The position numbers and the translations under genes are program-made. The notes under the pieces are model-generated. The model saw only the letters and a program-made list of their open reading frames with translations, ran no database searches and was not told the DNA's origin. A DNA stretch of 64,000 bases. Origin: Streptantibioticus silvisoli (lineage in GTDB: Bacteria; Actinomycetota; Actinomycetes; Streptomycetales; Streptomycetaceae). Below are positions 5,403 through 21,773 of this stretch, in pieces (the first letter of the stretch is position 1; each line of letters opens with the position of its first letter). The stretch lies in assembly GCF_027947535.2 (NCBI RefSeq), contig NZ_JAAGKO020000001.1, forward strand, positions 186,001 through 250,000. The letters run 5' to 3'.

Positions 5403-5660
5403 TCAAGACAACGCGGATGAGACTGCCGCGCAACGCTGTTCGGGGGCGGCGGTCGGACGGGCGCTGGTGATGCGCTCACCGCTGTTGTCGTTGCACATGC
5501 CGCGCTGGCCGTCGTAGGTGATGTGCTGGGCCAGCGAGGCGACCTGGACGCCGGGGCTGAAGTGCATGGGTCCGGAGGACTGGCAGGAGATGTTCACCTC
5601 CGGTACGGCGACAGCGGGGGCCGGTGCGGTGATGGCGGCATCGACTGCACGCCGCTCGCC
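5403..5660 (-). pseudogene. possible remnant of a secreted beta-rich protein
   Basis: In one minus-strand frame, a stretch reading VPEVNISCQSSGPMHFSPG and then TYDGQRGMCN has two Cys and a pattern I associate with the N-terminal part of a common family of secreted Streptomyces proteins. Signal peptide, start codon and the C-terminal half are missing. Recognition rests on pattern memory only and confidence is low; it may be chance. Confidence 0.25.
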
Positions 5661-6135
5661 CGATCCCACGTCGGTGCCCTCGGCCGGCGGATCGGCGGTC
5701 GGCCCCAAGTGGGATGCACCGGGAGCCGCTCGGCGCTGCGGCGGCAGGTGGCGGCGGTGACCGGGGGCCTCTGGCTGCGCGGGCCCCGGTCGGCCAGGAT
5801 CGCTTGGGCCGGGCACGGACGACGGGGCAACGCCGTTACCCGTCACGGTAGTTGGCGTGGGCGACGCGGCAGGGGAGGGGCCCACCGTGGCGCCGGAGTT
5901 CCACACCTCGGTCAGCGGTACGAGACGGTCGAGGCCGAGCGCACACGTCGCCGATGTCGATGCCGATGTGGATGCCGTCGTGCCGCGACCGCCAACTGCG
6001 CCGGTGAGGCCGTGCCGACGGCCGGCGCGTCATCGCTTCGCCGCAGGCCGTTCAGGTGTCCGCACCCGACGGCGACGCTTCGACGACGACCGCGTCCTAC
6101 CCAACAGCCGCCCGCCGTAGGACAGTTCGGCCTCG

Positions 6136-6289
6136 TGACACTCCTCCGTGCGGAAGCCCCCCGTAGGACCTGCGACTCCGTGCGACGGCCCCGTACAACC
6201 TGCGACTCCGTGCGGCAGTCCACAATCTGCGACTCCGTGCCGGAGTCCCCGTACGCCCTGCGACTCCGTGCGGAAGCCCCCCGTACGAC
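6136..6289. repeat. intergenic minisatellite, about 30-bp unit
   Basis: Four units begin with the invariant core TGCGACTCCGTGC at 6171, 6201, 6228 and 6259, with unit lengths of 30, 27, 31 and 31 bp. A diverged half-unit (6136-6170) precedes them. The unit tails vary around GGAAGCCCCCCGTACGAC. The array lies directly downstream of the leftward marR gene and is not palindromic. Unequal unit lengths argue against a coding repeat, and the spacers are too short for CRISPR. Confidence 0.85.
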
Positions 6290-6330
6290 ATCCCCCGCAC
6301 CGCCGCGGGACGCGTTCCCGGTGGCGGCAG

Positions 6331-6840
6331 TCAGGCCGCGGAGACGGTGCCGGGGGTGCCGTGGTCGTCGGCGGTCGTGCTGAGTTGGCCGTGGAGTCCC
6401 GCGAGTCCTATGGCCAGTGCGCGCCGCTCGGCCGGGGGCATGGCGTCGATGGCGTGCTGGAGAACGCTCTCGCGCTGCTCGCGGATGCGTTCCAGGTGTG
6501 CCCTGCCCGCGGTGGTCAGCCGCAGGGTGACTTCCCGTCCGCTGTCGGGGCTCGGCAGCCGCTCCAGGAAGCCGATGGCCTGCAGGCGGTCGCACAGCCG
6601 GCTGACGGACGGGGGCGCGGTGCCGAGCCGCCGGCACAGGGTCCGCATCCGGATGCCCTCGTCGCGGTCGACGATGTACATCAGGCGCAGTTGGGAGGCG
6701 GAGGCCGGAGCGGTGCCGGCGGACTCCCTGGCGCGTTCCCCCATCACGTGGAGGAGTTCGATGATGCCGCTGGCGGACTGGGTGGCCTGGTGGGAGAACC
6801 CGCCCGGGACGAGATCTGGCGCTGGCATCTGCTTCCCCAT
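6331..6840 (-). CDS. MarR-family transcriptional regulator
   Basis: The 169-residue product is a winged-helix MarR protein. Residues about 45-120 contain SQLRLMYIVDRDEGIRMRTL, the recognition helix region APPSVSRLCDRLQAIGFLER, and the wing PDSGREVTLRLTTAGRAHLE. It is the last gene of a leftward set (PP2C phosphatase, B12-binding protein, STAS protein), 55 bp after the STAS gene, so co-transcription is likely. The 22-bp inverted repeat upstream of the phosphatase (10119-10140) is a candidate binding site, which would make the operon autoregulated; this is inference. Confidence 0.9.
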   Translation of the reverse strand: MGKQMPAPDLVPGGFSHQATQSASGIIELLHVMGERARESAGTAPASASQLRLMYIVDRDEGIRMRTLCRRLGTAPPSVSRLCDRLQAIGFLERLPSPDSGREVTLRLTTAGRAHLERIREQRESVLQHAIDAMPPAERRALAIGLAGLHGQLSTTADDHGTPGTVSAA

Positions 6841-6895
6841 CGGTATGTGTGTCCCCGTCCCGTGCGAGCGTTCCGTACGGGGGCGGGCAGTGGCG

Positions 6896-7327
6896 TCAGG
6901 TGGTGCCGTCCGGTCCGGTGGGGCGGGCCGCTCTCGCTTCCGCGCTGTTCTTGGGGGACTCCCCCGCGCCGGCGGGAGAGCTCGCGGCGCCGTTGGGGGA
7001 CGCCGTGAGGTGTTCCAGGGTACCGGTGATGGTCAGCAGCCGGTCCAGCCGTGCGGTGCGGTCGTCCAGATGGAGGCGGACGCCGGCTTCGCCGGTGCGG
7101 CGGTGGATCATCAGCAGGACGGACAGCCCCATGGAGTCGACGGTGCCCAGCCCGGCGCAGTGCAGGTGCAGGTGCTCCAGGCGCGGCCGGCCGGCGAGTT
7201 GCCCGGTGACGGCGGCCAGGAGGCGGTCGGCGTTGTCGTAGTCGAGGTCGCCCCGCAGCTCGATGCGGACGGTGGCCTCGGTGTCGACCGTGGTCAGGCG
7301 CAGACGGGCGGAGGGCATCATGGTCAT
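6896..7327 (-). CDS. STAS-domain anti-anti-sigma factor-like protein
   Basis: This 143-residue protein is a single STAS domain (about residues 8-112) followed by a disordered Ala/Pro-rich tail. The phosphorylatable serine sits in TVDSMGLSVL (Ser65), matching SpoIIAA/RsbV. In partner switching, unphosphorylated STAS protein captures an anti-sigma kinase and frees a sigma factor, and a PP2C phosphatase reactivates it. The start ATG overlaps the stop of the upstream B12-protein gene (ATGA), giving translational coupling. No anti-sigma kinase gene is in this window, so the partner must be encoded elsewhere. Confidence 0.9.
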   Translation of the reverse strand: MTMMPSARLRLTTVDTEATVRIELRGDLDYDNADRLLAAVTGQLAGRPRLEHLHLHCAGLGTVDSMGLSVLLMIHRRTGEAGVRLHLDDRTARLDRLLTITGTLEHLTASPNGAASSPAGAGESPKNSAEARAARPTGPDGTT

Positions 7328-8418
7328 GCTCGGTTCCCGGCGGTGGTGGCGTGGAGAGGGATGAGTGCGTCGGTGCCGCGGCGGAGGATGCGGGTGGCCC
7401 GGGGGAAGTCCTTGAGTTCACGGGCCAGGATGCCCAGGGCCGGCGGCAGGCTGTGGGCGGGCACGCCGCGCGCGGTGAGGATCTCGGCGGTCCAGGTGAT
7501 GAACCCGGTGAAGAGTTCCTCGTCGCCGAGGTACAGGGCCGTGGCGAGGAACTCCACGATGTGTGCGAGGTCCTCCGCCGTGTGCTCGCGCTGGAGTTCG
7601 CTGTACGCGCGCATGGCGGGGAACGCGTCCTCCAGGGCGGTGAAGACGGTGCGCACGAGCGAGGCGCTGCCCCGGGCGACCATGGTGTATTCCTGGTCGG
7701 CCAGGTGGGGCAGGTCGTCCAGCTGCTGGTGGTCGGGCTGCGGTCGTGCCAGCGGTTGCCCGGCGAGGCGGTCGGCCGCGGCGCGGGCGTCGGGTGCCCA
7801 GGCGTCGGCGCCGAGCCGGCGGGCGTAGCGGCCGTCGGGCCCGAAGGCGGCGCCTCCCACCAGGACGGGTGCGCCGACCGACTGGCAGGCGGTGATCGCG
7901 GCGTGCGCGGTGGGCAGCCGGGTCGCTATCGAACCGGACAGGGCGACCGCGTCGGCGGCGGTGCGGTGCAGGTGGGTGATGAGGTGCGGGGTGGGGACCT
8001 GGGCGCCGAGGTAGTCCACCCGCCAGCCGCGCAGTTTCAGCACCTCGGCCAGCAGGCGGGCGGGCAGCGCGTGCCATTCGCCGTCGACGCAGGCCACCGT
8101 GATCCGGCCGCGTTCGGGAGCGGTGCGGGCTGCGGGGTGCAGGGCGAGTGCGGCGACGGCCCGTTCGTTGACGGCGGTCGCGGCGTGTTCCTGCGCCACG
8201 CTGAGGCGGTTTGCGGCCCACTCGCGGCCCACCTTGCCCTGGACCGGGGCGATCACGTCCAGCAGCACGCTCTCCGGGTCGACACCGTCGTCCACGGCGC
8301 GCAGCACCAGGTCGGTGGCCGTGTACTCGTCGGCCGCCGAGACGGCCTCCCACAGTTCGTCGGCCAGCTGCCGGACTGCTTCGTCGCCGCGCAGGCGGTG
8401 GGACGTGCGGGTGCTCAT
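7324..8418 (-). CDS. cobalamin-binding protein, W-x9-EH photoreceptor type
   Basis: The 364-residue product has three parts. A helical-bundle cap (about 10-95) contains W67 followed after exactly nine residues by E77-H78, the W-x9-EH signature of CarH/LitR/AerR-type light-sensing cobalamin domains. A Rossmann-like B12-binding domain (about 105-225) has DGEWH (His116 as probable lower ligand), DYLGAQVP and VGGAAFG. A helical C-terminal domain of about 130 residues is of unknown role. No MerR DNA-binding domain is fused, so output is probably protein-protein. ATG 8418 overlaps the phosphatase stop, and its own stop overlaps the STAS start. The longer upstream frame is antisense-like, so 8418 is preferred. 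Confidence 0.88.
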   Translation of the reverse strand: MSTRTSHRLRGDEAVRQLADELWEAVSAADEYTATDLVLRAVDDGVDPESVLLDVIAPVQGKVGREWAANRLSVAQEHAATAVNERAVAALALHPAARTAPERGRITVACVDGEWHALPARLLAEVLKLRGWRVDYLGAQVPTPHLITHLHRTAADAVALSGSIATRLPTAHAAITACQSVGAPVLVGGAAFGPDGRYARRLGADAWAPDARAAADRLAGQPLARPQPDHQQLDDLPHLADQEYTMVARGSASLVRTVFTALEDAFPAMRAYSELQREHTAEDLAHIVEFLATALYLGDEELFTGFITWTAEILTARGVPAHSLPPALGILARELKDFPRATRILRRGTDALIPLHATTAGNRA

Positions 8419-10070
8419 GCGGTGAACCTGCCCCGGGTGTGCCCGTTCACCGCACTGAGATGCCGGGTGCGCGGTGCGGAGATCACGACGACGGCCATGT
8501 CGTCGTGGGAACCGTCGCCGACCCACTGGGAGGCGAGCATCTGGATGCGTTCCACGATGCTCTCGGACGGCATGCCCGCGCACTCCGACAGGGCGCGCTG
8601 GAGGCGTTCGTCACCGAACTGGGTGCCGCCCATCGGCCCGCCCTTGGCCTCGGTGATCCCGTCGGTGTAGAGCACGCAGGACTCGCCGGGCGCCAGGGTG
8701 AGGGCGGCGGTGTGGGTGGGCACGTTGGGCAGGGCCCCCACCAGGGTGCCGTGGGTGCGGGCCTCCTCCACCGCGCCGCTCGCGCGCAGGATCAGCGGCC
8801 TCGGATGGCCGGCGCTGGTCAGCCGCAGGTCCACCGCGTTGCCCTTGCGTACGGCGGAGGCCAGGACCAGGGTCGCGAACCGGGTGTGGTGGGAGTTGAG
8901 CAGCGCGGTGTTCAGCAGGCTGATCATCCGCTGGTGGTCGTCGGCCAGCGGGAGCAGGGCGTGCAGGGTGTTGCGGATCTTGCCGGTCAGCACGGCGGCT
9001 TCCAGCCCCTTGCCGCACACGTCGCCGAGCGCGACCAGCGACGCCTCGCCGTCGACGACCGCGGGGTGCACGTCGTAGAAGTCACCGCCGACCCGGTCGT
9101 GGTCCATCGACGGCCGGTAGCCGCCGGCGAAGTCCACCCCGGAGATCTGGTGCAGCGACGGCGGAAGCAGCTCCCGCATCAGGATCTCGGTGATCGACGC
9201 CTGCTCCGCGTACAGGCGGGCGGCCGACATCGCCGCTCCCGCACGGGCGGCGAACAGCCGGGCGAAGACTTCCTCGCCCTCGGTGAACGCCGCCGTCTGC
9301 GAACGGCGCAACAGCACGAGGGCACCGGCCGGTACGCCGTGACCGGGCAGCGGGGTGACGACTATCGAGCCGATCGGGCCGAAGCCCTCGGGCACCATCC
9401 ACTCCGGCGCGGCGGCCGGATCGATCCAGCGCGAAGGCACCGGCGGGAAGCCGCGCAGCGCCTCGCCGAGACCCGGCACGTCGTCGGGGTCCACCGACTC
9501 GTGGGACAGCACGGGGTGGCCGCCGCGCAGGCAGGTCACCACCGGCAGTTGCGGCCCCTGCGCCGGCGCGATGACCAGCGCCGCGTCGGCGAGGTTGTCC
9601 GCGGCCATCTGCGCGGTCACATCCATGCAACGCCCCAGGTTGAGGGAGGACAGCAGCATGCTGGAGACCTTGGCCAGGAACGCGGTGCGCTCGCGCTCCA
9701 TGTGCAGTGCCTCCCGCACCAGCCGGTGATCGGTGTCGTCGACCAGCCACCACACCACCGTGCCGTCGGCCCGCACGCTGGGATGCGCCTCGAAGCTGCG
9801 CTCACCGATCACCCCCGAAAGCGGTGGTTGCGCCGCCCGGTCGGCCGCCGTATCGGGGCACCGCAACGCGTCGTGCGCCACCGACAGCCAGCCCGGGGCC
9901 ACGTCCGCCAGACACGTCCCGGGACGGGCCGCCGGCAGCAGCAGTCCGGCGGCGTCGTTGCGCACGACGACCGTGCCCCGGACGTCAGCGACCAGGACGG
10001 GATACGGGGCGTCGCTCCAGGGGGAGCCAGGCTCTGTGTCGGCACCGGTTCGCGCTTGGGTGGTGACCAA
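8415..10070 (-). CDS. PAS-GAF-PP2C (SpoIIE/RsbU-type) serine phosphatase
   Basis: The 551-residue sensor phosphatase has an N-terminal PAS-like domain (about 15-120), a GAF domain (about 130-285) and a PP2C/SpoIIE catalytic domain (about 315-540). The metal-binding motifs VGGDFYDV, GDVCGKG, YTDGITEAKG and HDDMAVVVI are all present, so it should be active. There is no HATPase kinase domain and no membrane segment. Its expected substrate is the phospho-STAS protein two genes downstream. The best in-frame start is TTG 10070, but the Shine-Dalgarno match is weak. It is first in the operon and overlaps the B12 gene by 4 bp. Confidence 0.9.
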   Translation of the reverse strand: MVTTQARTGADTEPGSPWSDAPYPVLVADVRGTVVVRNDAAGLLLPAARPGTCLADVAPGWLSVAHDALRCPDTAADRAAQPPLSGVIGERSFEAHPSVRADGTVVWWLVDDTDHRLVREALHMERERTAFLAKVSSMLLSSLNLGRCMDVTAQMAADNLADAALVIAPAQGPQLPVVTCLRGGHPVLSHESVDPDDVPGLGEALRGFPPVPSRWIDPAAAPEWMVPEGFGPIGSIVVTPLPGHGVPAGALVLLRRSQTAAFTEGEEVFARLFAARAGAAMSAARLYAEQASITEILMRELLPPSLHQISGVDFAGGYRPSMDHDRVGGDFYDVHPAVVDGEASLVALGDVCGKGLEAAVLTGKIRNTLHALLPLADDHQRMISLLNTALLNSHHTRFATLVLASAVRKGNAVDLRLTSAGHPRPLILRASGAVEEARTHGTLVGALPNVPTHTAALTLAPGESCVLYTDGITEAKGGPMGGTQFGDERLQRALSECAGMPSESIVERIQMLASQWVGDGSHDDMAVVVISAPRTRHLSAVNGHTRGRFTA

Positions 10071-10118
10071 ATGTTGAGGACCCGCTGGGCGAATCCCTCA
10101 CCTCATCGACTCGAAGAA

Positions 10119-10140
10119 ATCGTTGCCTTGGGGCAACGAT
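10119..10140. promoter_or_regulatory. 22-bp perfect inverted repeat, probable operator
   Basis: The arms ATCGTTGCC and GGCAACGAT pair perfectly over 9 bp around a TTGG centre. The repeat lies 48 bp upstream of the phosphatase start, where promoter elements are expected. Symmetry and size suit a MarR-family dimer, and a MarR gene closes the same operon. Confidence 0.6.
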
Positions 10141-10483
10141 CCCGCATGTCGTGTCCTCCTGGCAACCCGCGCGCCCGCCACCGGCGTGGCGTCCGGCCAC
10201 TGTCGGTGATCACGGCCGAGCCGTCACCGCGCTGTGCGGACCGGCCCGGCGGCGGCGATCCACCGGCCGTTCCCCACCGACCGGATCGCCCGGAACGACC
10301 GCGAAGTCACCGCTGGTGACCCCGCAGGACCGGCATTCCTGCACCGCCCTGCTCCAGCCCGGCGTCGTCCTCCGCGACGCCTTCGGTGCGGCCGCGCGAC
10401 ACTTCGGCCGACCCGCCGGCCCAACGCCCATGTGTGTGGGGAAGGTGGGGGAAAATTCACCGGGCCCCACCATGATCACCACC

Positions 10484-10489
10484 TAGGAT
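10484..10489 (+). promoter_or_regulatory. -10 element for a leaderless transcript
   Basis: TAGGAT ends 8 bases before the ATG at 10498, with no Shine-Dalgarno sequence between. This spacing places transcription start at or next to the A of the ATG, a common arrangement in Streptomyces. The 400-bp region to the left (10141-10483) shows no gene. Confidence 0.5.
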
Positions 10490-10497
10490 CGCCGGTT

Positions 10498-11457
10498 ATG
10501 GTTGATCCCTATCCTCCGACCAGTCCCTACGACTCCGGATTCCTCGACACCGGAGACGGCAACCGCGTCTACTTCGAACAACTCGGCAACCCCGAAGGCA
10601 AGCCCGCCCTCAACGTGCACGGCGGCCCGGGGTCCGGCGCGTCACGGCGGCCGACGAGGGCCTGGGACCCCGACCGGTACCGCCTGATCCGCTTCGACCA
10701 GCGCAACTGCGGTCGCAGCACCCCGCACGCCAGCGACCCGGCGGCGGACATGAGCCTGAACACCACGCGGCACCTGATCGACGACATGGAGCGGCTGCGC
10801 GAGCACCTGGGCATCGAACGGTGGCTGCTGAACGGCGCGTCCTGGGGCTCGACGCTCGTCCTGGCCTACGCGCAACAACACCCCGAGCGGGTCAGCGAGA
10901 TGATCATCCCGGCGGTGACGACGACCCGCCGCTCCGAGATCGACTGGCTCTACCGCGGCGCCGGGCGCTTCCACCCCGAGGCATGGGACCGGTTCCGCGA
11001 CGGCGTCCCCGCGGACGAGCGGGACGGCGACCTGCTCGCGGCCTACGCGCGGCTGATGGAGCACCCCGACCGGGCGATCCGCGAGAAGGCCGCCACCGAC
11101 TGGCTCACCTGGGAGGACGCGGTCATCTCCGGCGAACCCAACGGCGTCCCCGGCATGTACAGCGACCGCGAGGTCGACGACCGGATCGCGTTCGTCCGCA
11201 TCTGCGCCCACTTCTTCAGCAACGGCGCGTGGCTTGAGGAGGACCAACTGCTGCGCAACGCCCACAAGTTGGCCGGTATCCCGGCGGTGCTGGTCCACGG
11301 GCGGCACGACATGGGCAGCCCGGTGCGGACGGCGTGGGAGCTGGCGAAGGCATGGCCGGACGCGCGACTGCACATCATCGAGGACTCGGGGCACGCCGGA
11401 AGCGACGCGATGCACCAGGCGATCCGGACGGCCATCGAGGAGTTCAAGGACCGGTGA
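10498..11457 (+). CDS. pip: proline iminopeptidase (alpha/beta hydrolase, S33)
   Basis: The 319-residue enzyme removes N-terminal proline from peptides. Visible motifs are the oxyanion segment NVHGGPGSGAS (near residue 40), the nucleophile elbow NGASWGSTL with Ser of G-x-S-x-G (near 118), the acid HGRHD (near 277) and the catalytic His in EDSGHAG (near 303). Length and layout fit the Pip family; the His segment usually reads GHS and here reads GHAG. No signal peptide is present, so it is cytosolic. The start at ATG 10498 is supported by TAGGAT placed for a leaderless mRNA. The gene is monocistronic. Confidence 0.93.
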   Translation: MVDPYPPTSPYDSGFLDTGDGNRVYFEQLGNPEGKPALNVHGGPGSGASRRPTRAWDPDRYRLIRFDQRNCGRSTPHASDPAADMSLNTTRHLIDDMERLREHLGIERWLLNGASWGSTLVLAYAQQHPERVSEMIIPAVTTTRRSEIDWLYRGAGRFHPEAWDRFRDGVPADERDGDLLAAYARLMEHPDRAIREKAATDWLTWEDAVISGEPNGVPGMYSDREVDDRIAFVRICAHFFSNGAWLEEDQLLRNAHKLAGIPAVLVHGRHDMGSPVRTAWELAKAWPDARLHIIEDSGHAGSDAMHQAIRTAIEEFKDR

Positions 11458-11531
11458 TCCACGCAGCACGTGGTGCGCTGCGAACGTGACCCACGGCTTC
11501 CGCGCCGAGCACGGGTTCCCAGGCCGCGTAC

Positions 11532-12036
11532 GGTCTCCCCGCCCACGCGCTGCTGGTGCACGCCGTGGTGATCCTGGTGCCGCTCGCAGCGCTGGCCCTG
11601 GTGGTGTGCGCCGTCGCCGTCCTGGATCCGCAGGCTGGGCATCGTGCTGCCGGGGCTCGCCCTGGTCGCACTCGTGAGCGTGCCGTTGACCACGCACGCG
11701 GGTGAGTGGCTGAAGCGGCGCGTGCCCGCCGACCCGCTGGTGAACCGGCGCGCCGGGCTCGGCGGCACCCTGCTCCCCTGGGCGATCGCCCTGTTCGCCG
11801 TCACGGTCGCCGTGTGGTGGTCGGGTCGCCGGGCTCCGTTCGCCTCGGAGACCGCCCGGTCGACCGGCTGGGGCGGTGGAACGGCGATCCTGCGTGTTCC
11901 GGTGCGGGTCGTCGCGATCGTCCTGTCGCTGGTCGCCGGCGTCGGATCGGTCACGCAGGTCTACCGGATCGGCGACTCGGGCGCGCAGGCCGTCTGGCAC
12001 GACAGCTTCTCCGCCCAGCCCGTCAACCAGGGCTGA
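11532..12036 (+). pseudogene. frameshifted DUF2231 membrane protein gene
   Basis: The N-terminal hallmark GLPAHALLVHAVVILVPLAA is read from 11532. The rest of the domain (LVALVSVPLTTHAGEWLKRR and two further hydrophobic spans) is read in another frame from about 11641 to the stop at 12036. The switch lies around 11625-11645. The N-terminal part also has no in-frame start codon after the nearest upstream stop. DUF2231 proteins are small four-helix membrane proteins. Two independent lesions make an assembly error less likely than decay, but that cannot be excluded. Confidence 0.7.
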
Positions 12037-12427
12037 TCCCGACCGGCGGGACTGCCCGAGGGCCGTGGGCGCCACCGTTGCGAACCCCGCAGGCAGGGGC
12101 GGCGTGTTCGGGAGCGGGCGCCGGCCAGGCAGGCCGGGCAACGGCACACCCGGCACCGGGGTCGTGCCCGGCCGTTGTGAACGCACGACCTGCTGAGATT
12201 GTCGTGAACGCACGACGTGCCGAAATGGTCGTGAACGCACGACGTGCCGAACAAGGCCCACCGTCGTCGTGGCGGTCAGCGGCCGGCGAAGTGGAATCTG
12301 GCCGGTTCGCGTCTAGTGGGGACGGACGATCCGCCCTGCTTGTTGCCAATCCGGCCACCCCCACGTCACTTTGATGGCCGGTCAGTCGGCTCGGGCGCCA
12401 CGGCGTCCTGTGGGGGAAGGAAACAAC
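12037..12427. other. gene-free stretch with minisatellite
   Basis: No gene is supported between the DUF2231 remnant and the secreted-protein gene. It holds the 27-bp palindromic tandem repeat at 12174-12254; the promoter of the following gene should lie in 12300-12410. Confidence 0.5.
12174..12254. repeat. three tandem 27-bp palindromic units
   Basis: Three contiguous units of exactly 27 bp (12174-12200, 12201-12227, 12228-12254) each contain the core GTCGTGAACGCACGAC, a perfect 6-bp inverted repeat around AACG; the first unit has GTTGTG in its left arm. The units therefore form regularly phased dyads, as in an operator array, or could be a simple minisatellite. They lie 174 bp upstream of the secreted-protein start. 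Confidence 0.85.
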
Positions 12428-12901
12428 GTGCTGAGAAGCATCTGCGTGACAGCGGCAGGGGCCGCCGTGCTGCTGACGGGAGGAGGTTCGGCCTGGGCCG
12501 CCGCGCCCTCGCCCGCCCCCTCGGTCAGCGCGTGCTCGGGGGTGATCGAGGTCGACGGCTTCGCGTTCACGCCCGCCGCGGTCCTGCCCGGCGGGGACTC
12601 CTCCGCCGTGCTGGCCGTGACGAACTGCACGGCGCAGGCACAGACGGTCAGCGAGCAGTGGACCGGCCACTTCTCCTCGCTGACCGGCACCGGCATTCCC
12701 GCCGGCTGCCCCGTCATCGACCCGCTGCCGCGCTCACAGGCCCTCCCGGCGCACACCGAGGAGACCACCGCCACGACCTACACGGTCCCCGTCGGCTGCA
12801 CCGCCGACCGGCTGACGGTGACGGTGCAACTGTCCCAGGACGGGACACCGCTGGCCACCGCCAGCACCGTGCTGACCATCAACCGGTCCACCACGGGGTG
12901 A
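12428..12901 (+). CDS. secreted small Cys-containing protein, function unknown
   Basis: The 157-residue protein has a clear Sec signal peptide (VLRSICVTAAGAAVLLTGGG, cleavage after the SAWA region near residue 25). The mature part of about 130 residues is rich in Thr and Val, with four cysteines (ACSG, NCTA, GCPV, GCTA), so two disulfides are likely. The alternating pattern suggests a beta-sandwich. I do not recognise the family. GTG 12428 is preferred over an upstream ATG because GGAAGGAAA precedes it and the signal peptide begins there. It is followed by a strong terminator. Confidence 0.75.
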   Translation: MLRSICVTAAGAAVLLTGGGSAWAAAPSPAPSVSACSGVIEVDGFAFTPAAVLPGGDSSAVLAVTNCTAQAQTVSEQWTGHFSSLTGTGIPAGCPVIDPLPRSQALPAHTEETTATTYTVPVGCTADRLTVTVQLSQDGTPLATASTVLTINRSTTG

Positions 12902-12906
12902 CCACG

Positions 12907-12938
12907 GTGGACGGCCGCTCTGCCCGGCGGCCGTCCAC
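12907..12938 (+). terminator. intrinsic terminator hairpin
   Basis: GTGGACGGCCG and CGGCCGTCCAC form a perfect 11-bp stem around a 10-base loop, 5 bp after the stop of the secreted-protein gene. No T-run follows, which is usual for Streptomyces terminators. Confidence 0.8.
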
Positions 12939-13089
12939 GCTCTGCGCATCCCGGGCCGACGCCCGGTTGGAGGACCCTGCGGTCCTCGTACTTCCTGGGG
13001 GAGCCCGTCTCGTGGGTTGAAGGCGAATACCACGTGACCCTCCGGCCCCGGCGAGGACGCGCATCGTCCGGAACGCGGCCGGCGTGCCG

Positions 13090-13335
13090 TTACTCCAGCT
13101 TCGCCAACTCGGCGCGTACGGACGCCACCGCCCGGGGATCGAGCGCCCCCGGAGCGATCGCCTCCATACGGTCGGCGTGCTCGACGTACCACTGGAAGTA
13201 CTCACGGTCCCGTTCCGGTGGCCACGGGCGGCCGGCGGCGTGGTCGGCGGTGCGTTGGGCGCCCGCGAGCTGGAGTTGCATCGCCTCGCGGACCAGCTCG
13301 TCCGCCGACTCCTCAGTACCCTCTGATGTGGTCAT
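13090..13335 (-). CDS. small acidic helical protein, hypothetical
   Basis: The 81-residue product is predicted largely alpha-helical, with an acidic N-terminus (EGTEESADELVREAMQLQLA) and a central REYFQWYVEHADRM segment. It has no Cys, signal peptide or membrane span, and I do not recognise a family. ATG 13335 is chosen because upstream extensions become Arg/Gly-rich, like non-coding sequence. The Shine-Dalgarno match is poor. It converges on the secreted-protein gene and is divergent from the GH28-type gene. Confidence 0.55.
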   Translation of the reverse strand: MTTSEGTEESADELVREAMQLQLAGAQRTADHAAGRPWPPERDREYFQWYVEHADRMEAIAPGALDPRAVASVRAELAKLE

Positions 13336-13588
13336 ACGAACCACGATGGCAGCGCCCCCGTGCCGCAGGGGAGAGCGCACGGACGCACACACCGACGCAT
13401 GCGGCACGCTCCGCGCCACCGGCCACGGCCTCGCGCGCCCGCGCCGAATCCGGTGCCCCCGCACGCCACTTGCGCCGACGCCGCTGCTCCCGGAACGCCA
13501 CCCGCGCAGACCCCGCCGCCCCCAGGAACGCCACCCGCGCGGGCCCCCGCGCCCCTGACCGGTTCGTCGCGGGTCTTGGTATGGACCA

Positions 13589-13648
13589 TTGACAGCGTTT
13601 TTCCGGCTCTTTAATGTCATGAGGAGTGTCATCAGGAAAGTCATGAAG
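13589..13648 (+). promoter_or_regulatory. strong promoter with three 12-bp direct repeats
   Basis: TTGACA (13589-13594), a 17-bp spacer and TAATGT (13612-13617) form a near-ideal vegetative promoter. Beginning inside the -10 element are three direct repeats at exact 12-bp spacing: GTCATGAGGA (13616), GTCATCAGGA (13628) and GTCATGAAG (13640). Repeats placed across the transcription start suggest a repressor that covers the start site of the GH28-type gene. Confidence 0.7.
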
Positions 13649-13724
13649 TAGGTGGCGGCGTGATGTGACGCCGCATCAGAGGACCGGCGCGTGTTCTTCC
13701 CACCTTTGACCAAAGGGACACCGG

Positions 13725-15380
13725 ATGAGATCACCGCTGATTCCGACCGCCGGAGCCCTGCGGGGCCTTCGGCGTTGTCTTGCCTTCGGGCTGACCGCTC
13801 TCCTGCTGGGGACCGCGGCGCTGCTGGGAGCCCCGCACGCCGCCCAGGCGGCCCCGGCCCCGGCCGCGGCGGGGACCGTGGGGGCGTACCCGGTCCCGTC
13901 GATCTATCCGGCGTCGACGGACTACAGACTCACCGTCAACGGCACCTCGGTGCCCGTCCAGAAGTTCACCGGGTACGACATCGCCCAGCTCGCCCTGGGC
14001 ACGGGCACCGCCACCATGGCGGTGACCAAGATCAACGACACGGCCATCGGCTCGTACAGCATCAGCCCGGAGAAGCTGGGCATCGTCGGCTCCGTCAGCG
14101 GCCCGACGCTGACCTTCACCGTGCCGAAGGACGAGTACCTGATCGTCAAGGTCGACGGCCGCCCCAACCTGGTGATCGCCGCCGACCCGGGGGAGTACGA
14201 CCCGCCCGCGACCGGCGGCACCGGGATCTTCAACGTGACCGCCGCGCCCTACTCGGCCCAGCCGAACACCGGCGACTACACCACGACGGCCTTCCAGGAC
14301 GCCCTCAACGACGCCGCCGCGTACGGGTCCGCGAACAACACCCAGGGCATCGTCTACGTGCCGGCCGGCGTGTACACGCTGGGCAACCTCTACCTGCGCA
14401 GCGACCTCGCGTTCTACCTCGCCCGCGGCGCGGTGCTGCGCTACACGGGAGACGCCGCCCACTACGTGGTGACCGGGCACAAGGACTCGCAGGGGCGGGA
14501 CCTGACCTGGTTCATCTCCACGCGGTACTCCTCGTCGAACATCAAGATCTACGGCCGCGGGATCATCGACGGGAACGGCGCGGCCTCGCTCGGCCCGTCC
14601 AACCTCGGGGTGAACCTGCTCGCCCCCATCTACACGAACGGGTTCACGGTGGACGGCATCACCTTCCGCGAGTCCAGCAGTTGGGCGGTCACCCCGCTGC
14701 GGTCGTCGAACATGACCTTCACCAACGTCAAGTTCTTCAACCGGTTCGACATGGGCGAGGACGACGGCATCGACGTCCAGGAGTCCTCGAACGTCACCGT
14801 CACCCACGCCATCGGCATCGGGCTCGACGACCCGTTCAGCACCAAGACCTGGGGCGACACCACCGACATGTTCAGCACCGTCCCCGGCACGGCCACCCCG
14901 CTGTCGAACGTCACCTTCAACGACCTGCTGTCGTGGACCTACTGCTACGGCATCAAGGTCGGCCAGGGCGTGGTCACCGGGCAGGACGGCGTCACCTTCG
15001 AGAACGTCGTCGTCTACGACGCCGCGGTGGGCATCGGCATCGACCACAAATACGGGACAGCGGCCGCGACGAACATCAAGTTCGACAACATCGACATCGA
15101 ACGACTCGACTTCGCCAATGACAACAACCGCACCTGGCTCGCCATGATGACCGAGACCTCGCAAGGCGTCGGCCCGGTCACCGGAGTCACGATCTCCAAC
15201 GTGAGGGTCCGCGACGCCGGCACCACCGCAGCCCGCATCAACGGCCAGCCCGGCGCCCTCATCTCCGGGGTCACCCTGAGCAACGTCGTGATGCCGGGCA
15301 GCACCGCCGCCGCGACCACCCTCGGCCAGCTGAACCTGACCAACGTCTCCAACAACGGGCCCATCACCATCACGTCGTAG
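13725..15380 (+). CDS. secreted GH28-type right-handed beta-helix glycosidase
   Basis: The 551-residue secreted protein has an Arg-rich signal peptide (about 1-42), an N-terminal beta-sandwich domain (about 50-145, including YRLTVNGTSVPV and KDEYLIVKVDGRPN) and a pectin-lyase-like parallel beta-helix (about 160-551). Candidate catalytic acids are in GEDDGIDVQES and GLDDPF, with YGIKVG corresponding to the RIK-type segment of GH28. I infer a polygalacturonase-like or related activity on plant or other polyuronides; the exact substrate is uncertain. ATG 13725 has AAGGGAC upstream. It has a dedicated promoter and terminator, so it is monocistronic and probably substrate-regulated. Confidence 0.82.
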   Translation: MRSPLIPTAGALRGLRRCLAFGLTALLLGTAALLGAPHAAQAAPAPAAAGTVGAYPVPSIYPASTDYRLTVNGTSVPVQKFTGYDIAQLALGTGTATMAVTKINDTAIGSYSISPEKLGIVGSVSGPTLTFTVPKDEYLIVKVDGRPNLVIAADPGEYDPPATGGTGIFNVTAAPYSAQPNTGDYTTTAFQDALNDAAAYGSANNTQGIVYVPAGVYTLGNLYLRSDLAFYLARGAVLRYTGDAAHYVVTGHKDSQGRDLTWFISTRYSSSNIKIYGRGIIDGNGAASLGPSNLGVNLLAPIYTNGFTVDGITFRESSSWAVTPLRSSNMTFTNVKFFNRFDMGEDDGIDVQESSNVTVTHAIGIGLDDPFSTKTWGDTTDMFSTVPGTATPLSNVTFNDLLSWTYCYGIKVGQGVVTGQDGVTFENVVVYDAAVGIGIDHKYGTAAATNIKFDNIDIERLDFANDNNRTWLAMMTETSQGVGPVTGVTISNVRVRDAGTTAARINGQPGALISGVTLSNVVMPGSTAAATTLGQLNLTNVSNNGPITITS

Positions 15381-15404
15381 CCACCCGCCGGACCGGCCGC
15401 CCAG

Positions 15405-15457
15405 GACCAGCCGCCGCCGTCAGCCCGGGACCACGGGGTTGGCGGCGGCGGCTGGTC
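15405..15457. terminator. bidirectional terminator
   Basis: GACCAGCCGCCGCCG (15405-15419) pairs perfectly with its complement at 15443-15457, a 15-bp stem, between convergent genes ending at 15380 and 15478. It should terminate transcription from both sides. Confidence 0.85.
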
Positions 15458-15477
15458 ACCGTCCCGGCGGCGCCGGC

Positions 15478-16632
15478 TCAGACCAGCGCGTGCGGGTACT
15501 CCTGCGCGCGGTGCTGGAAGGCCAGGACCGCGGGGTTCTGCACGGTGCCGCCGCGGATCTCGATCGCCCGGCGGATCGTGGTGTCACCGTCCCAGCCGGC
15601 CGGCCCTTCGAGGACCGGCCGCAGGAACGGGATCAGCGCCTCGCTGTTCTCCCAGGTGCTCGCGTCCCACAGGTAGGAGGGGCTGTGGTCCACGCCGTAG
15701 TAGTGGACGCGGTCGCCGACGGTGAACATCGGGTCGTTGAACGTGGTGGGCCGGGCCCACGCGAAGCCCATGCCCTCGTCGCAGGAGACGTCGATGACGA
15801 GGGTGCCGGGCGCGAGCTTCGGCAGGTCTTCCTTTATCAGGAACATCAGCGGCGCCGCGGTGTCCTGGAGCACGCAGTTGACGATGATGTCGTGGTCGGC
15901 GAGGAAGTCCGCGAGCGGCTCCGGGCCGCCCTCGGTGAACACGACGCTGCGCCGCGGGTCGAGGGTGTCGTCGGCCACGTCATGGTCGAACTGCACCATC
16001 CGCGCGGAGTGGATCGGTGAGCTGACGGCGGTGACGCCGCGGGCGGTCAGCACGTCCACGTCGTGCACGCCGAGCGCGCTGAGCGCGGTGACCGCGCCGC
16101 GGGCGGTGGCGCCGAAGCCGATCACCACCGCACGCCGCCGGCGCCCGTAGTCACCGGTGGTGCCGGTCAGCTGCATGGCGTGCAGCACCGAGGAGTAGCC
16201 GGCCAGCTCGTTGTTCTTGTGGAAGACGTGCAGGCTGAACGTGCCCTCGCGGGTCCAGTGGTTCATCGCCTCGAAGGCGATCAGCGTGAGCCTGCGGTCG
16301 ATGGCGGCCTGCGTGACCTTCTCGTCCTGCACGCAGTGCGGCCATCCCCACAGCACCTGCCCGTCCCGCAGCTCCGCCAGATCCTCGTGCAGCGGTTTCG
16401 CCAGCAGGATGACGTCGCACTCCTCGATCAGCTCCTCGCGTGGGCGGAGACCGGCGACCAGTGGGGCGAGGTCCTTGTCCGGGACGCCGAAGTGCTCTCC
16501 GTAACCGGTCTGCAGATAGATGCTGGACTGGAGATCGGCGTCGATGCGTTCGAAGTGCGCCGGGTGGATCGGCAGGCGGTACTCGTTTTCCTTGCGGGTC
16601 TGCGACATGATTCCGAGCTTGAGCTGCTGCAA
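15478..16632 (-). CDS. alanine dehydrogenase/PNT-family oxidoreductase
   Basis: The 384-residue protein belongs to the AlaDH/PNT superfamily, in the branch close to N5-(carboxyethyl)ornithine synthases rather than classic Ald. The N-terminal substrate domain carries the family signature KLGIMSQTRKENEYRLPIHP, and the Rossmann domain has VVIGFGATARGAV near residue 190. The chemistry is probably NAD(P)H-dependent reductive amination or an opine-like reaction; the substrate is unknown. TTG 16632 is favoured because AAGGGG lies 5 bp upstream. It is monocistronic, with a 13-bp inverted repeat about 30 bp upstream that may be its operator. Confidence 0.8.
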   Translation of the reverse strand: MQQLKLGIMSQTRKENEYRLPIHPAHFERIDADLQSSIYLQTGYGEHFGVPDKDLAPLVAGLRPREELIEECDVILLAKPLHEDLAELRDGQVLWGWPHCVQDEKVTQAAIDRRLTLIAFEAMNHWTREGTFSLHVFHKNNELAGYSSVLHAMQLTGTTGDYGRRRRAVVIGFGATARGAVTALSALGVHDVDVLTARGVTAVSSPIHSARMVQFDHDVADDTLDPRRSVVFTEGGPEPLADFLADHDIIVNCVLQDTAAPLMFLIKEDLPKLAPGTLVIDVSCDEGMGFAWARPTTFNDPMFTVGDRVHYYGVDHSPSYLWDASTWENSEALIPFLRPVLEGPAGWDGDTTIRRAIEIRGGTVQNPAVLAFQHRAQEYPHALV

Positions 16633-17064
16633 AATACCCCTTTGATTACTCCTTGTTTAACACACTTCCGAAGTGCGGGAACCCGAGAAGTGGCGCGTTT
16701 ACCGATCGTTTCGGAAATGATGTGTCGATGCGCCGGAGGCAGTTGATGCCGCATGCCTGGTCGGGCGGGGTCCGGCGGAGACCGGCAAGCGTTCGTGGCG
16801 GATACGGGGTCGGGTGAACAAGTGGCGCGAGATGAAGGTGCACTCGACGGTTCAGTGCGTTTTTCCCCGGCGGAATGCAGGGGCGGCCGCGACCGGAGAA
16901 CAGCCGTTCCGGTCTGTTGCGGGAGCGTCTCCGCGTTTCCCGATGGGCGGGACGGCGTCCGGCGGAGGGGGAGCCGGGTGGCGTTCCGGCCGGTTGCCGT
17001 CGGTTACGGAGACGGGAGGCGGGCCCCTGCGCTCACCGGCGGAGAGCCGTAGGCGCGGATCGGT
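16633..17064. other. intergenic region with operator-like dyad
   Basis: No gene is supported. CACTTCCGAAGTG (16663-16675) is a perfect 6+1+6 inverted repeat, 31 bp upstream of the AlaDH/PNT-family start and next to an AT-richer patch (TTTAACA) that could be the -10 region. Confidence 0.45.
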
Positions 17065-17106
17065 TCAGCCGAGGCCGTGTTCAAAGGCGTAGCGCACGGC
17101 CTGGGC
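17065..17106 (-). pseudogene. 3' tail of a LuxR-type regulator gene
   Basis: Read leftward, the last codons before the TGA at 17065-17067 encode AQAVRYAFEHGLG. This closely fits the end of the NarL/LuxR helix-turn-helix domain (typically RTQAV-YA-HGL). Everything upstream of this tail is missing; the sequence turns into the headless carotenoid oxygenase read on the opposite strand. Only about 14 codons remain, so identification is by motif alone. Confidence 0.5.
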
Positions 17107-17725
17107 CCCCGAGCACGGCGCCCGCCTAGGCGTCCTGGACCGCGCCGACCCCCACGGCCCGGTCCGCTGGTTCGACATCACGCCCTGCTACGTCTTCCAC
17201 ACCCTCAACGCCCATGAGGAGGGCGAACGCCTCGTCCTGCACGCCGTCCGCTACGACCGGCTCGGCGACGGGGTACAGGTCGACACGCACGGAACGCTGT
17301 GGCGCTGGACCGTCGACCTGGCCACCGGCACCGTCCGCGAGGAACAACTGGACGACCGCCCCGCCGAGTTCCCCCGCATCGACGACCGCCTCGCCGGCCT
17401 GCCGTCGAGGTACGGCCACGCCAGCGCCACCCACACCCCCGGCGGCGCGGACCGCAGCGGTGCCGTGTACCGCTACGACCTGCACACCGGCGCGGTCACC
17501 AGCCACCTCTTCGCCCCCGGCCGCACCCCCGGTGAGGCCGCCTTCGCGCCGGCCGACGACCGGGTCGGCGGTCCCGGTTACCTGATGGCCTTCGTCCACG
17601 ACGCCGCCCGTGACCGCAGCGACCTGGAAATCCTCGACGCCGAAACTCTCGACACCCTGGCCACCGTCCACCTGCCCCGCCGTGTTCCGGCCGGCTTCCA
17701 CGGCAACTGGCTCCCGGACCGCTGA
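17093..17725 (+). pseudogene. N-terminally truncated carotenoid oxygenase
   Basis: The frame from a stop at 17090 to the TGA at 17725 encodes the C-terminal 210 residues of a carotenoid cleavage oxygenase/lignostilbene dioxygenase-family protein. Recognisable segments are the His-containing FDITPCYVFHTLNAHEEG, RYGHASATHTPGG, PGYLMAFVHDAARDRSDLEI and the C-terminal iron-ligand segment VPAGFHGNWLP. The family is usually 450-500 residues, and the missing half includes the first iron-binding histidines, so this cannot be functional. The break coincides with the LuxR tail, indicating a recombination junction near 17100. Confidence 0.75.
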
Positions 17726-18046
17726 ACGGGCTGCCGCCCCGGACCAGGGGATCGGGTGCTGGGCAACCATGACCCCGGCTTCGCCCCCTGCCTCACCGCA
17801 CGCGCCGTCGGCGCAGGCAGGGGCGGTCGGCGGGAGGCCGGGCTCCGACGCGCCGGCGAGGCGCCCGCCCGGGTCAGGCGGACGGTCCCGGGAACGCGGC
17901 ACGTCTGACGTGCATATACCGCCCGGAAACTCCGATGAGCACACTATTGATCCGTATCTGGCGATCCGTCATATCGGGGGGCTACAGTCGTGAAGGTCCC
18001 TCCGCTTCGGAGCGGAGCGGGCGCAGATCGGAGACCGGAGAGCGGG
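17726..18046. other. gene-free stretch before the GMC gene
   Basis: Nothing coding is supported. The sequence around 17925-17985 is AT-richer than its surroundings and probably holds the promoter for the GMC oxidoreductase gene. Confidence 0.4.
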
Positions 18047-19645
18047 GTGGTGGACGTGTACGACTACGTGATCGTCGGTGCCGGTTCGGCCGGCTGCGTA
18101 CTGGCTGCCCGGCTGAGTGAGGACCCCGGCGTCCGGGTGGCCCTGGTGGAGGCCGGCGGTCCCGACACGGCCCCGGAGATCCACACACCGCTGGCCTTCC
18201 CGAGCCTCTTCAGTTCCGCATGGGACTGGGACTACCACTCGGCCCCCGAGCCCGGCCTCGACGGTCGGCGCGCCCCGCTGCCGCGCGGCCGGGTACTCGG
18301 CGGGTCCTCCTCGATGAACGCCATGATCTACATCCGCGGCAACCCCGCGGACTACGACGCCTGGTCCGCGAACGGTGCCCCCGGCTGGGCCTGGCGGGAC
18401 GTCCTGCCGTACTTCCTGCGGGCCGAGGACAACGAACGCGGCGCCACCGCCCTGCACGGTGCCGGCGGACCGCTCACCGTCAGCGACGGACGCTCCCGGC
18501 ACGTCATGATGGACGCCTTCGTCGAGGCGGCCCAGCAGGCCGGTCACCCCCGTAACGAGGACTTCAACGGACCGCGCCAGGACGGGGTGGGCCACTACCA
18601 GCTCACCCAGCGCAACGGCATGCGGTGCAGCACCGCGGTCGGTTATCTGCGTCCGGCGCTGGAGCGGCCCAACCTCGACGTGCTGACCGACACGCTGTGC
18701 GGCCCACTGCTGTTCGACGGTGACCGGGTGACCGGCGTGGAGATCGAACGCGCCCGCGAGGTGTCCGCGCTGCACGCCGCGCGCGAGGTCGTGCTCTGCG
18801 CCGGCACGTACAACTCCCCGCATCTGCTGATGCTCTCCGGCATCGGCCCGGCCGCCACCCTGGCCGCGTGCGGCATCACCCCGCGGGTCGATCTGCCCGT
18901 CGGGGAGAATCTCCAGGACCACCTGCACGCCGGCGTCTCCTACCTCTCCGGCACCGAGTCCCTCCTCACCGCCCGCACCGAGCGCAACGTAGCCCTGCTC
19001 GTCGGATCGGGCCGCGGACCCCTCACCTCCAACGTCGCCGAGGCCGGCGGATTCCTACGCACCCGCGAGGGACTCGCGGCCCCGGACGCGCAGATCCACG
19101 CGGCGCCCGTGCTGTTCACCGAGGACCTCCTCGCCGTCCCGTCGCAGCACGGCTTCGTCATCGGGGCGGCGCTGCTGTGCCCCACCAGCCGGGGAAGCGT
19201 CGTTCCGCGGTCCGCGCTGCCGTCCACCAAGCCCCGCGTCCAGCACAACTACCTCGCCACCGCCGAGGACCGCGACACCATGGTGCGAGCGGTACGGGTG
19301 GTCCTGGAGATCGCCGGCCAGCCCGCCCTCAAACCCCACCGCGGCGACCCGCTGCACGCACCGGCCTCCGCCGGGGACGCCGACATCCTGGCCTTCGTCC
19401 GGCGGCAGGCGCAGACGATCTACCACCCCGTCGGGACCTGCGCGATCGGCACGGTGGTCGACCCCGACCTGCGGGTGCGGGGCGTCGAGGGGCTGCGGGT
19501 GGTCGACGCCTCGGTGATGCCGACGATCGTGCGCGGCAACACCAACGCGCCCACGGTGATGATCGCGGAGAAGGCCGCGGACCTCCTCCGCGATCGCACG
19601 GCGGTCCCCCGAATCGCGGCGGATGCGATAGCACCGGCTTCCTGA
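18047..19645 (+). CDS. GMC-family FAD oxidoreductase
   Basis: The 532-residue enzyme is a glucose-methanol-choline family flavoprotein. Visible are the dinucleotide fold YVIVGAGSAGCVLAARLSED at the N-terminus, the GMC signature GRVLGGSSSMNAMIYIRGN (near residue 82), the second signature AGTYNSPHLLMLSGIGP (near 250) and the C-terminal catalytic region IYHPVGTCAIG to MPTIVRGNTNAPTVM. The closest functional group is choline/alcohol dehydrogenase-like, but the substrate cannot be read from sequence and no betaine-aldehyde dehydrogenase gene is adjacent. GTG 18047 has GGAG 6 bp upstream; GTG 18050 and 17990 are alternatives. Confidence 0.9.
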   Translation: MVDVYDYVIVGAGSAGCVLAARLSEDPGVRVALVEAGGPDTAPEIHTPLAFPSLFSSAWDWDYHSAPEPGLDGRRAPLPRGRVLGGSSSMNAMIYIRGNPADYDAWSANGAPGWAWRDVLPYFLRAEDNERGATALHGAGGPLTVSDGRSRHVMMDAFVEAAQQAGHPRNEDFNGPRQDGVGHYQLTQRNGMRCSTAVGYLRPALERPNLDVLTDTLCGPLLFDGDRVTGVEIERAREVSALHAAREVVLCAGTYNSPHLLMLSGIGPAATLAACGITPRVDLPVGENLQDHLHAGVSYLSGTESLLTARTERNVALLVGSGRGPLTSNVAEAGGFLRTREGLAAPDAQIHAAPVLFTEDLLAVPSQHGFVIGAALLCPTSRGSVVPRSALPSTKPRVQHNYLATAEDRDTMVRAVRVVLEIAGQPALKPHRGDPLHAPASAGDADILAFVRRQAQTIYHPVGTCAIGTVVDPDLRVRGVEGLRVVDASVMPTIVRGNTNAPTVMIAEKAADLLRDRTAVPRIAADAIAPAS

Positions 19646-20372
19646 CGAGCGGTTCCGGCGGCCGTTCCGGCGCCGGTTCCCACGGGGAGCCGCGCGTACC
19701 GTTCGGCGGCCGTCCGGGCGGTTCACGCTGCCCGTGGCCGACCCCGGCGGAGGGGGCACGCGGCAGAACAGCTCCGGGTGGTCCGGGGGCGCGAACGTCC
19801 CCACGCCTCACCGGTGTTGTCCCGGGCGGTGCCGCGCTCATGCACTCTGCGGCCCGGTCCGGTGAGTGTCCTCGGCTCCCGCTCGGCACCCGGCGCGTGG
19901 TCCCGTCGATGCGCCGACCTGTCGACCCGATCCGCCGCGCCGCCGTGCGTTCGTCGAAGCGAGGCCGCGATCCGCCCGGCGGCGTGCACGGCGGTCTCCT
20001 CGTGCGCCGGGGAAGTGGCAAGTCGTGCGCCGGGGGAGTGGCAAGTGACGGGATGCGCGCGGGTGTTGCGGAGTGCGCCGGGCCGTGACGCAATACGTCC
20101 TGTCACTTTATTCGACGTTATGTCAGCCTGGACCGGCACGCCCCGTTGTCCGACCCCAAGCCGCATCATGCCGACGCGCTGCTTCCCGACACGCCTCCCG
20201 CCCGACCGGCCTCCCACCCGGTGCGCGCCCCACGGGCCGCCACCCGACCCCCGGCGACCGGTCCACCGGGCCCCGCACCGGCCGCCCCGACGCCCCGCCG
20301 TCCTGCGGCCCTCCACTGTCCCCCGCGCCCCCGCCGTCCTTCGGCCCCCACCGCCACCGAAAGGCGTGCCTC
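19646..20372. other. intergenic region upstream of the P450 gene
   Basis: No gene is supported. It contains a 23-bp tandem duplication (20001-20046). An AT-richer patch at 20095-20130 (CACTTTATTCGACGTTATG) is the likeliest promoter area for the P450 gene. Confidence 0.4.
20001..20046. repeat. 23-bp tandem duplication
   Basis: Two adjacent 23-bp copies (20001-20023 and 20024-20046) of a unit that starts CGTGCGCCGGGG and ends GTGGCAAGT differ at one base. They are non-coding and lie 327 bp upstream of the P450 start. Confidence 0.75.
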
Positions 20373-21773
20373 ATGAATCCGCACCCCCTGTCAAACGGTT
20401 GCCCGTACGTGCTCGACGCCTCCGGTGGCGACATTCACGCCGAGGCCGCGGCGTTACGTGCGCTGGGACCGGCCGCGCGCACCGAACTGCCCGGCGGTGT
20501 GCTCGCCTGGTCCGTCACCGAACCCTCGCTGGTGCGCCGTCTGCTGACCGACCCGCGCATCTCCAAGGACGCCCGGCAGCACTGGACCGCGTACCGCGAG
20601 GGCCGGGTGCCTGCCGACTGGCCGCTGCGGATCTGGGTCGAGGTCGTCAACGCGCTGTCCGCGCAGGGCAAGGAGCACACCCGGCTGCGGCGCCCGCTGG
20701 CCGGCGCGTTCTCCACCCGGCGCGTCCGTGCCCTCGCCCCGCGGATCGAGACCATCACCCGGGCCCTCCTCGACGACCTCCGGGCGGCGGGCGACGGCGC
20801 GCCGGTCGACCTGCGCGCGCGGTTCGCCTGGCAGCTGCCCCTGCTGGTCGTCAACGCGCTCATCGGCGTCCCCGAGGAACTGCACGACGGTTTCCGGGAC
20901 GCGATGGGAGCGCTGTTCATCACCGAACGGACCGAGGAGGAGGCCACGGCCGGCTACGCCGAGGTCTACCGGTTGCTGAACGCCCTCATCGCCCGCAAGC
21001 GCGAACGGCCCGCCGACGACGTGTCCTGCGAGCTGATCGCCGCCCACGACCGCGGTGAACTCACCGAGCAGGAACTGTGCGACAGCTTTCTGCTGATCAT
21101 CGCCGCGGGCCATGAGACGACGGTGAACCTCCTCGACCACGCCGTCACCAATCTGCTGACCCATCCCGACCAACTCGCGGCGCTGCTGCGCGGCACGGTC
21201 GCCTGGGATCAGGCCGTCGAGGAGACCCTGCGCCACCAGGCCCCCATCGCGAACCTCCTGATGCGCTTCCCCATCACGGACGTCACCGACGAGCCGAGCG
21301 GCCTGACGTTCCGCCAGGGAGAGGCCATCGTCGTCAACTACGCCTCCGTCGGCCGGCATCCGGCGGTCCACGGCCCCACCGCCGACTCCTTCGACATCCA
21401 CCGCGCGACCGCCCGCGACCATCTCGCCTTCGGCCATGGCGCCCACCTCTGCCTCGGCGCCGAACTCGCCCGCCTGGAGGCCCGGATCGCGCTGCCCGCC
21501 CTCTTCGCGGCGTTCCCCCGGCTCCGGCTCGCCGTCGACCCCGCCGACCTCACGCCGCTGCCGTCGTTCGTCACCAACGGCCACCGCGGCCTGCCCGTCC
21601 ATCTGCACGGTTGCCGCCCCTCGGCGGTGGCTGACGCCGGCGTCCGGGGTCCGGCCCGTGGCGTGGTGGGCGGCGGAGCGGGGTGTCAGGTCCCCGCGCC
21701 GCCGCCCACGGCGGTGAGCAGGGCGAGCGGGGTGGCGGCCGCCCAGGCCTGCGGTGAGCACGCGTGCGGATAG
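20373..21773 (+). CDS. cytochrome P450 with TTA codon and C-terminal extension
   Basis: The 466-residue protein is a bacterial class I P450. The oxygen-activation motif AGHETT is at residues 245-250, the K-helix ExxR is in VEETLRHQA, and the heme loop [17 protein letters not shown] has Cys360. The fold should end near residue 412 (LPVHLHGC); a further 50 Ala/Gly-rich residues run into, and overlap by 88 bp, the convergent glycosidase gene, suggesting loss of the original stop. Codon 28 (20454-20456) is TTA, implying dependence on the bldA tRNA. GAAAGG precedes ATG 20373. No ferredoxin or ferredoxin reductase is nearby, so redox partners come from elsewhere. Confidence 0.9.

Follow-up and report, generated by a model that had tools for sequence, protein, structure and literature searches.

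A probable DasR-repressed HrdB-type promoter upstream of a GH28-related glycoside hydrolase gene

The published operator of DasR reads A(G/C)TGGTCTAGACCA(G/C)T (PMC4398421), and the targets named in its table are chitin, GlcNAc, PTS, tRNA/ncRNA and antibiotic genes. The Streptomyces chitinase promoters have a longer history: direct repeats were once proposed to be their repressor sites, and specific binding was later found for DasR at dre sites, as recounted in PMC6097792. Promoters of S. coelicolor are described as having a TANNNT -10 element and an NTGACC -35 element (PMC4895711), and in the HrdB regulon the conservation of the -35 element is generally weak (PMC6344877).

The locus described here lies in a 64-kb window (the whole stretch of DNA that was analysed) from a genome of 8.7 Mb in 130 contigs. 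Judging from its sequence, we consider it likely that positions 13577-13617 are an HrdB-type promoter, repressed by DasR, from which the glycoside hydrolase gene starting at 13725 is transcribed. The features on which the argument draws are the following.

13090-13335, minus strand: probable short divergent gene of about 80 aa without a Pfam match; its start was picked by eye within a longer ORF
13577-13588, no strand: DasR-type (dre-like) palindrome TGGTATGGACCA, 17.9 bits by matrix; its 16-bp frame, 13575-13590, enters the -35 box
13589-13594, plus strand: -35 box TTGACA, read from the letters and from the genome pattern count
13612-13617, plus strand: -10 box TAATGT, read from the letters; fits TANNNT
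13616-13622, plus strand: repeat copy 1, GTCATGA, read from the letters; missing from the orthologous loci
13628-13634, plus strand: repeat copy 2, GTCATCA, read from the letters
13640-13646, plus strand: repeat copy 3, GTCATGA, read from the letters
13624-13724, plus strand: predicted 5' leader, given a transcription start some 7 bp past the -10 box
13725-15380, plus strand: ORF of a GH28-related enzyme, 551 aa, with a signal-peptide-like start (PF00295 at 52.1 bits, cut-off 22.9; fold)
58150-58926, minus strand: PL7-type lyase gene (PF08787, 192.8 bits), downstream of the DasR-type site at 58962
59495-60967: gene of a GH79-type hydrolase, pointing away from that of the PL7-type lyase, with a weak DasR-like match of 10.1 bits at 59404

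An earlier note on this DNA had called TTGACA-N17-TAATGT a near-ideal promoter, rare in Streptomyces. The letters are there as it wrote them, with the 17-bp spacer at 13595-13611, and the promoter type is indeed uncommon: the two strands of the 8.7-Mb genome together hold 15 instances of TTGACA-N17/18-TANNNT, more than chance would give, the reversed control pattern occurring once. "Near-ideal" suits the TTGACA -35 box and overstates the -10 box, since TAATGT has three of its six bases in common with TATAAT; for the same reason a sigma-70 consensus scan demanding at least 9 of 12 bases passed over the promoter and returned no site in 5000-22000. Read instead as an HrdB-type promoter, positions 13589-13617 combine an NTGAC -35, a spacer within 16-18 bp and a TANNNT -10.

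Orthologues of the enzyme gene were sought in 297 family genomes (five matching, that of the window included), in 392 genomes of one genus (seven matching) and in 35 of another (one matching). A further search of genome contigs gave four loci, and removal of overlaps left 13 loci besides the window; the named ones among them belong to records of Streptomyces (two) and Catenulispora (two). The start offsets of L005, L006, L009, L010 and L011 were set by eye, that of L010 lying off any start codon. TTGACA or TTGACT stands within 200 bp upstream in six of the 13 loci (L004, L006, L009, L010, L014 and L015); judged by 384 kb of DNA of the window's own genome, 200 bp of a single strand should hold about 0.004 TTGACA. 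L014 and L015 pair TTGACA with TAGCGT over spacers of 18 and 17 bp, and their promoters lie at -115 and -113 relative to the start codon, that of the window at -136. The promoter at 13589-13617 is very probably genuine and serves the enzyme gene at 13725-15380. A structured leader or riboswitch was considered and rejected: the folding z-score is 0.08, with 100 of 200 shuffles equally well folded, and the 64-kb window has no Rfam match at gathering thresholds.

The palindrome TGGTATGGACCA directly adjoins the -35 box and ends one base before the coordinates to which the earlier note was confined. It agrees with TGGTCTAGACCA at ten of the 12 core positions and differs at two. We scored it with a matrix of 35 published sites, hand-picked from those rows of the PMC4398421 table that deal with primary metabolism; one chiJ site, a weak one, was omitted, as were the sites inside nagE1, the nagE2 site at -236 that is related to them, and the other sections of the table. 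Scored leave-one-out, the training sites have a minimum of 14.1, a lower quartile of 17.3 and a median of 20.7 bits. The 17.9 bits of the palindrome thus fall within the range of published DasR sites, and are second in the window after the site at 58962. On the reverse complement strand the palindrome has the 10-bp core GGTCCATACC in common with the chiI site attggtccatacctat, itself a member of the training set and listed with gel-shift support in the table of PMC4398421.

Such scores are uncommon in the surrounding genome: the 320 kb of own-genome DNA outside the window hold no site of at least 17.9 bits and one of at least 14. Among 4,000 random 380-bp pieces the fraction reaching at least 14 bits was 0.0005, and among 3,000 random 300-bp pieces of the window and own-genome loci the fraction with at least 12 bits was 0.010. 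The background also bears on another explanation, a plain unregulated HrdB-type promoter beside which palindrome and repeats stand by chance. That no regulator gene was recognised beside the enzyme gene among the scanned neighbours would agree with it; a palindrome score unmatched in 320 kb, and a palindrome that recurs upstream of orthologous genes, do not, and we hold this explanation to be very improbable.

The recurrence is partial. DasR-type sites lie within 300 bp upstream at six of the 13 orthologous loci, scoring 21.5 (L004), 20.8 (L006), 18.7 (L012), 18.7 (L013), 14.6 (L005) and 11.9 bits (L011), and at L006 the arrangement of site and promoter is the same as in the window, GGTCTAGACCATTGACT. 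L005, L011, L012 and L013 have their upstream surroundings in common, as judged by eye, so that four of the six positives are not independent and the positives, with the window set aside, come down to three kinds of surroundings. The other seven loci (L007, L008, L009, L010, L014, L015 and L016) have no convincing site within 300 bp: six of them stay below 6 bits, L009 and L010 being the Catenulispora loci, and the 13.2-bit match of L008 falls in the last part of the gene before it. Three of the loci, L007, L008 and L016, sit close behind another gene, and L014 and L015 have their TTGACA promoters without a DasR-type site. About 3.1 kb upstream of the L016 hydrolase, a 20.8-bit DasR-type site (L081:1924-1939) enters a TTGAC; between the two lies a GH97 gene, which in a Pfam run shows ricin-type lectin domains and which precedes the hydrolase gene. 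In L080 the gene before the hydrolase starts with letters nearly identical to those of the L081 GH97 gene, and a GH59-type gene comes before that.

Some of the same upstream regions carry a different palindrome. A sequence of the form (G/T)G(A/G)(C/A)AACGTT(T/G)CC occurs at or near the promoters of L005, L011, L012, L013 and L014, and L015 carries GACAAGGTTGTC, an AAGGTT form. Sequences of this AACGTT type resemble LacI operators. A regulator other than DasR may be at work, either a LacI-family protein at the -35 box and spacer or another GntR/HutC repressor, which could equally use a palindrome such as that at 13577. The letters of the window at the corresponding place, GACAGCGTTTTTCC, make a poor palindrome, and the score of the one at 13577 is comparable to those of published DasR sites; on balance we think another regulator unlikely. 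The LacI-operator-like palindromes of L005 and L011-L015 each come after a single GTCATG.

The repeats are as the earlier note had them: three GTCATSA copies exactly 12 bp apart, starting at 13616, 13628 and 13640, the first of them within the -10 box, at the last two bases of TAATGT. Its interpretation, that they are the operator of a repressor, fared less well. Several features speak for a repressor or activator binding the repeats over the -10 box and start site: the spacing is exact, the 7-bp core is better conserved than the spacers, and the array lies across the -10 and start region. With arrays defined, after the repeat had been seen, as three copies of a 7-mer with at most one varying column at an equal spacing of 8-30 bp, first-order Markov models put P at 0.001 over 67 bp of the local base composition and at 0.04 over the whole intergenic region of 390 bp. 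Six orthologous loci (L005 and L011-L015) also carry single GTCATG copies in the neighbourhood of their promoters.

The wider counts are less favourable. Arrays of this definition number 45 across the whole window against a simulated mean of 8.0, and 290 in 384 kb of the own genome, window included, 27 of them with a 12-bp period. Among 12-bp-period arrays below 60% GC, the 384 kb yield 18 rows, or nine places after merging by hand, with the GTCATSA array among them; 31-bp positions below 60% GC number 20,308, or 5.3% of the 384 kb. No other array is as low in GC as that at 13616-13646. To meet one of this kind in some AT-rich promoter of a 64-kb window is nevertheless unsurprising. A 27-bp tandem array around GTCGTGAACGCACGAC, of low GC for this genome, lies at 12174-12234.

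The comparative evidence points the same way. The triple array is present at none of the 13 orthologous loci, and among 61 genomes it was found in two, the window's own and one with identical spacers. The earlier note had proposed looking for the repeats before other polysaccharidase genes; the own genome has a single further 12-bp-spaced GTCATSA pair, within the coding 5' part of a GH16 gene. Nor does GTCATSA occur within 80 bp of ten other loose-pattern dre-like sites in that genome. We rejected the array as a regulon motif on its lack of recurrence in the genome, the 61 genomes and the orthologous loci, and likewise a mini-ORF that the repeats form in frame (ATG to TAG, ten codons, 13619-13651): transcription is expected to start downstream of its start codon, and orthologous loci have no such array. 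To the repeats as operator we give the least credence of the explanations considered; they are probably not the regulatory switch. They look like a local array of this lineage or strain, mildly unusual, unconserved and, on the genomes compared, without a regulon.

For DasR, in turn, a protein is at hand. The genome encodes a DasR orthologue (L053:1686-2501) with GntR and UTRA domains that matches the solved DasR structure 4zs8 at 470 bits, and its gene is divergent from a solute-binding-protein gene (the dasA-dasR pair), with one or more DasR-type sites between them. A loose dre-like pattern finds 41 sites in the own genome against 19 for a control. We inspected 14 of these 41, in 13 regions chosen by eye, so that their gene list is no fair sample. 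Among these 14, sites lie within 150 bp upstream of GH18, GH25, GH3 and C39-peptidase genes, the DasR-type site of L051 is 700 bp from its GH25 gene, and the rest, apart from dasA-dasR, have no clear amino-sugar gene nearby, several sites in the 13 regions being in or near genes without an amino-sugar link.

Under DasR control the promoter would work as follows. The TTGACA/TANNNT promoter is good by itself; a DasR dimer on TGGTATGGACCA, the 16-bp frame of which overlaps the -35 box by two bases, would keep the sigma factor away. Once the amino-sugar phosphates GlcN-6-P and GlcNAc-6-P accumulate, DasR would release the site, and transcription would then begin at about 13624. The sequences themselves show the promoter elements and the palindrome, a motif score that stands out from real background, its recurrence at some of the orthologous genes and a DasR orthologue in the genome. 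We infer that DasR binds, that it acts as a repressor, where transcription starts and any link of the enzyme to amino-sugar polymers, and we take the 12-bp repeats to be a lineage-local array without a demonstrated role. Repression until a sugar signal arrives, the logic that the earlier note had suggested, is retained as the likeliest; what changes is the candidate operator, now the partly conserved DasR-type palindrome in place of the repeats, and the expected inducer, an amino-sugar phosphate in place of a pectin breakdown product. In place of a speculative repressor that binds the repeats, this offers an assignment open to test, to a global regulator that has been well studied. For chitinase genes, PMC6097792 describes minor expression differences only between the wild type and a dasR deletion; the small effect weakens a simple on/off picture here too.

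GH28 enzymes are marked by catalytic aspartates together with His-Gly and Arg-x-Lys motifs, and GH49 enzymes by an N-terminal beta-sandwich plus a beta-helix. For the product of the gene at 13725, a predicted model (pLDDT 71, pTM 0.79) was matched across both domains, among the matches listed, only by the dextranase/isopullulanase entries 3wwg, 1wmr, 6nzs and 1ogm: model residues 46/47 to 550/551, Z 21.9-24.1, rmsd 3.4-3.5 over 414-419 residues, at 16-17% identity to the enzyme. The first three are presumably GH49. Polygalacturonases, alginate lyases, epimerases and others among the matches listed align mainly with the beta-helix, at Z up to 26.6. Asp347, Asp368 and Asp369 are invariant in 14 of 14 sequences and fall opposite aspartates of the exo-polygalacturonosidase 3jur; the GH28 His and Arg/Lys positions seem to be replaced, in what is a weak alignment. 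No Pfam GH49 match was obtained for the enzyme. The earlier label "GH28-type" stands by Pfam (PF00295), and needs the qualification that in its predicted two-domain fold the enzyme is no less like dextranase/isopullulanase.

The highest score for a DasR-type site anywhere in the 64 kb, 23.5 bits, belongs to 58962-58977, which precedes the PL7-type lyase gene; a further match of 7.5 bits is at 58947. Of 200 genomes, 42 have relatives of this lyase, at 44 places in all, and we scanned 30 of these places over a stretch beginning 350 bp before the match and ending 30 bp within it. A site of at least 14 bits is present at 16 of the 30, the window included, which makes DasR-type control of such enzymes in the family more plausible; ten of the 14 without a site match from query residue 22-24, inside longer frames. 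The distance between the GH28-related hydrolase and the PL7-type lyase is about 13 kb in genome G018 (contig C20, loci L006 and L092) and about 43 kb in the genome of the window. It is conceivable, though we put it forward tentatively and with some doubt, that in this family of bacteria DasR controls, beyond chitin, the GH28/GH49-like hydrolase and the PL7-type lyase, with its GH79-like neighbour, for polymers containing uronate or amino sugars. If so, the hydrolase, which seems to be without the galacturonate-binding residues of GH28, would cut a polymer containing amino sugars. Enzymes of the GH28/GH49-like and PL7 types would then be possible additions to the DasR regulon, which would hint at the substrates on which they act in nature.

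The table of PMC4398421, where many entries carry an SCO number only, names no GH28/GH49-like or PL7 enzyme. A search of the open-access literature, with most subscription journals outside its scope, found no work on DasR together with polygalacturonase; DasR with alginate lyase appeared there in one paper, on natronoarchaea.

Against the described systems, the locus compares as follows. With the GH28 polygalacturonases and the GH49 dextranase and isopullulanase the enzyme has in common a beta-helix, a Pfam GH28 match and a two-domain alignment; it differs from GH28 in the apparent replacement of its His and Arg/Lys positions, and from GH49 in its Pfam result and low identity. HrdB-type promoters (PMC4895711, PMC6344877) are like that of the window in their TANNNT -10, NTGAC-type -35 and usual spacing, whereas its TTGACA is an unusually complete -35. 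The likeness to the DasR regulon and its dre sites (PMC4398421, PMC6097792) lies in the same type of operator, in a genome with a DasR orthologue, and in a promoter-proximal site before a secreted polysaccharide-degrading enzyme. The chitinase promoters described in PMC6097792 likewise have direct repeats at the promoter of a secreted polysaccharidase; in the window, however, the GTCATSA repeats are unlike dre and stand apart from the dre-like site, itself one lone palindrome.
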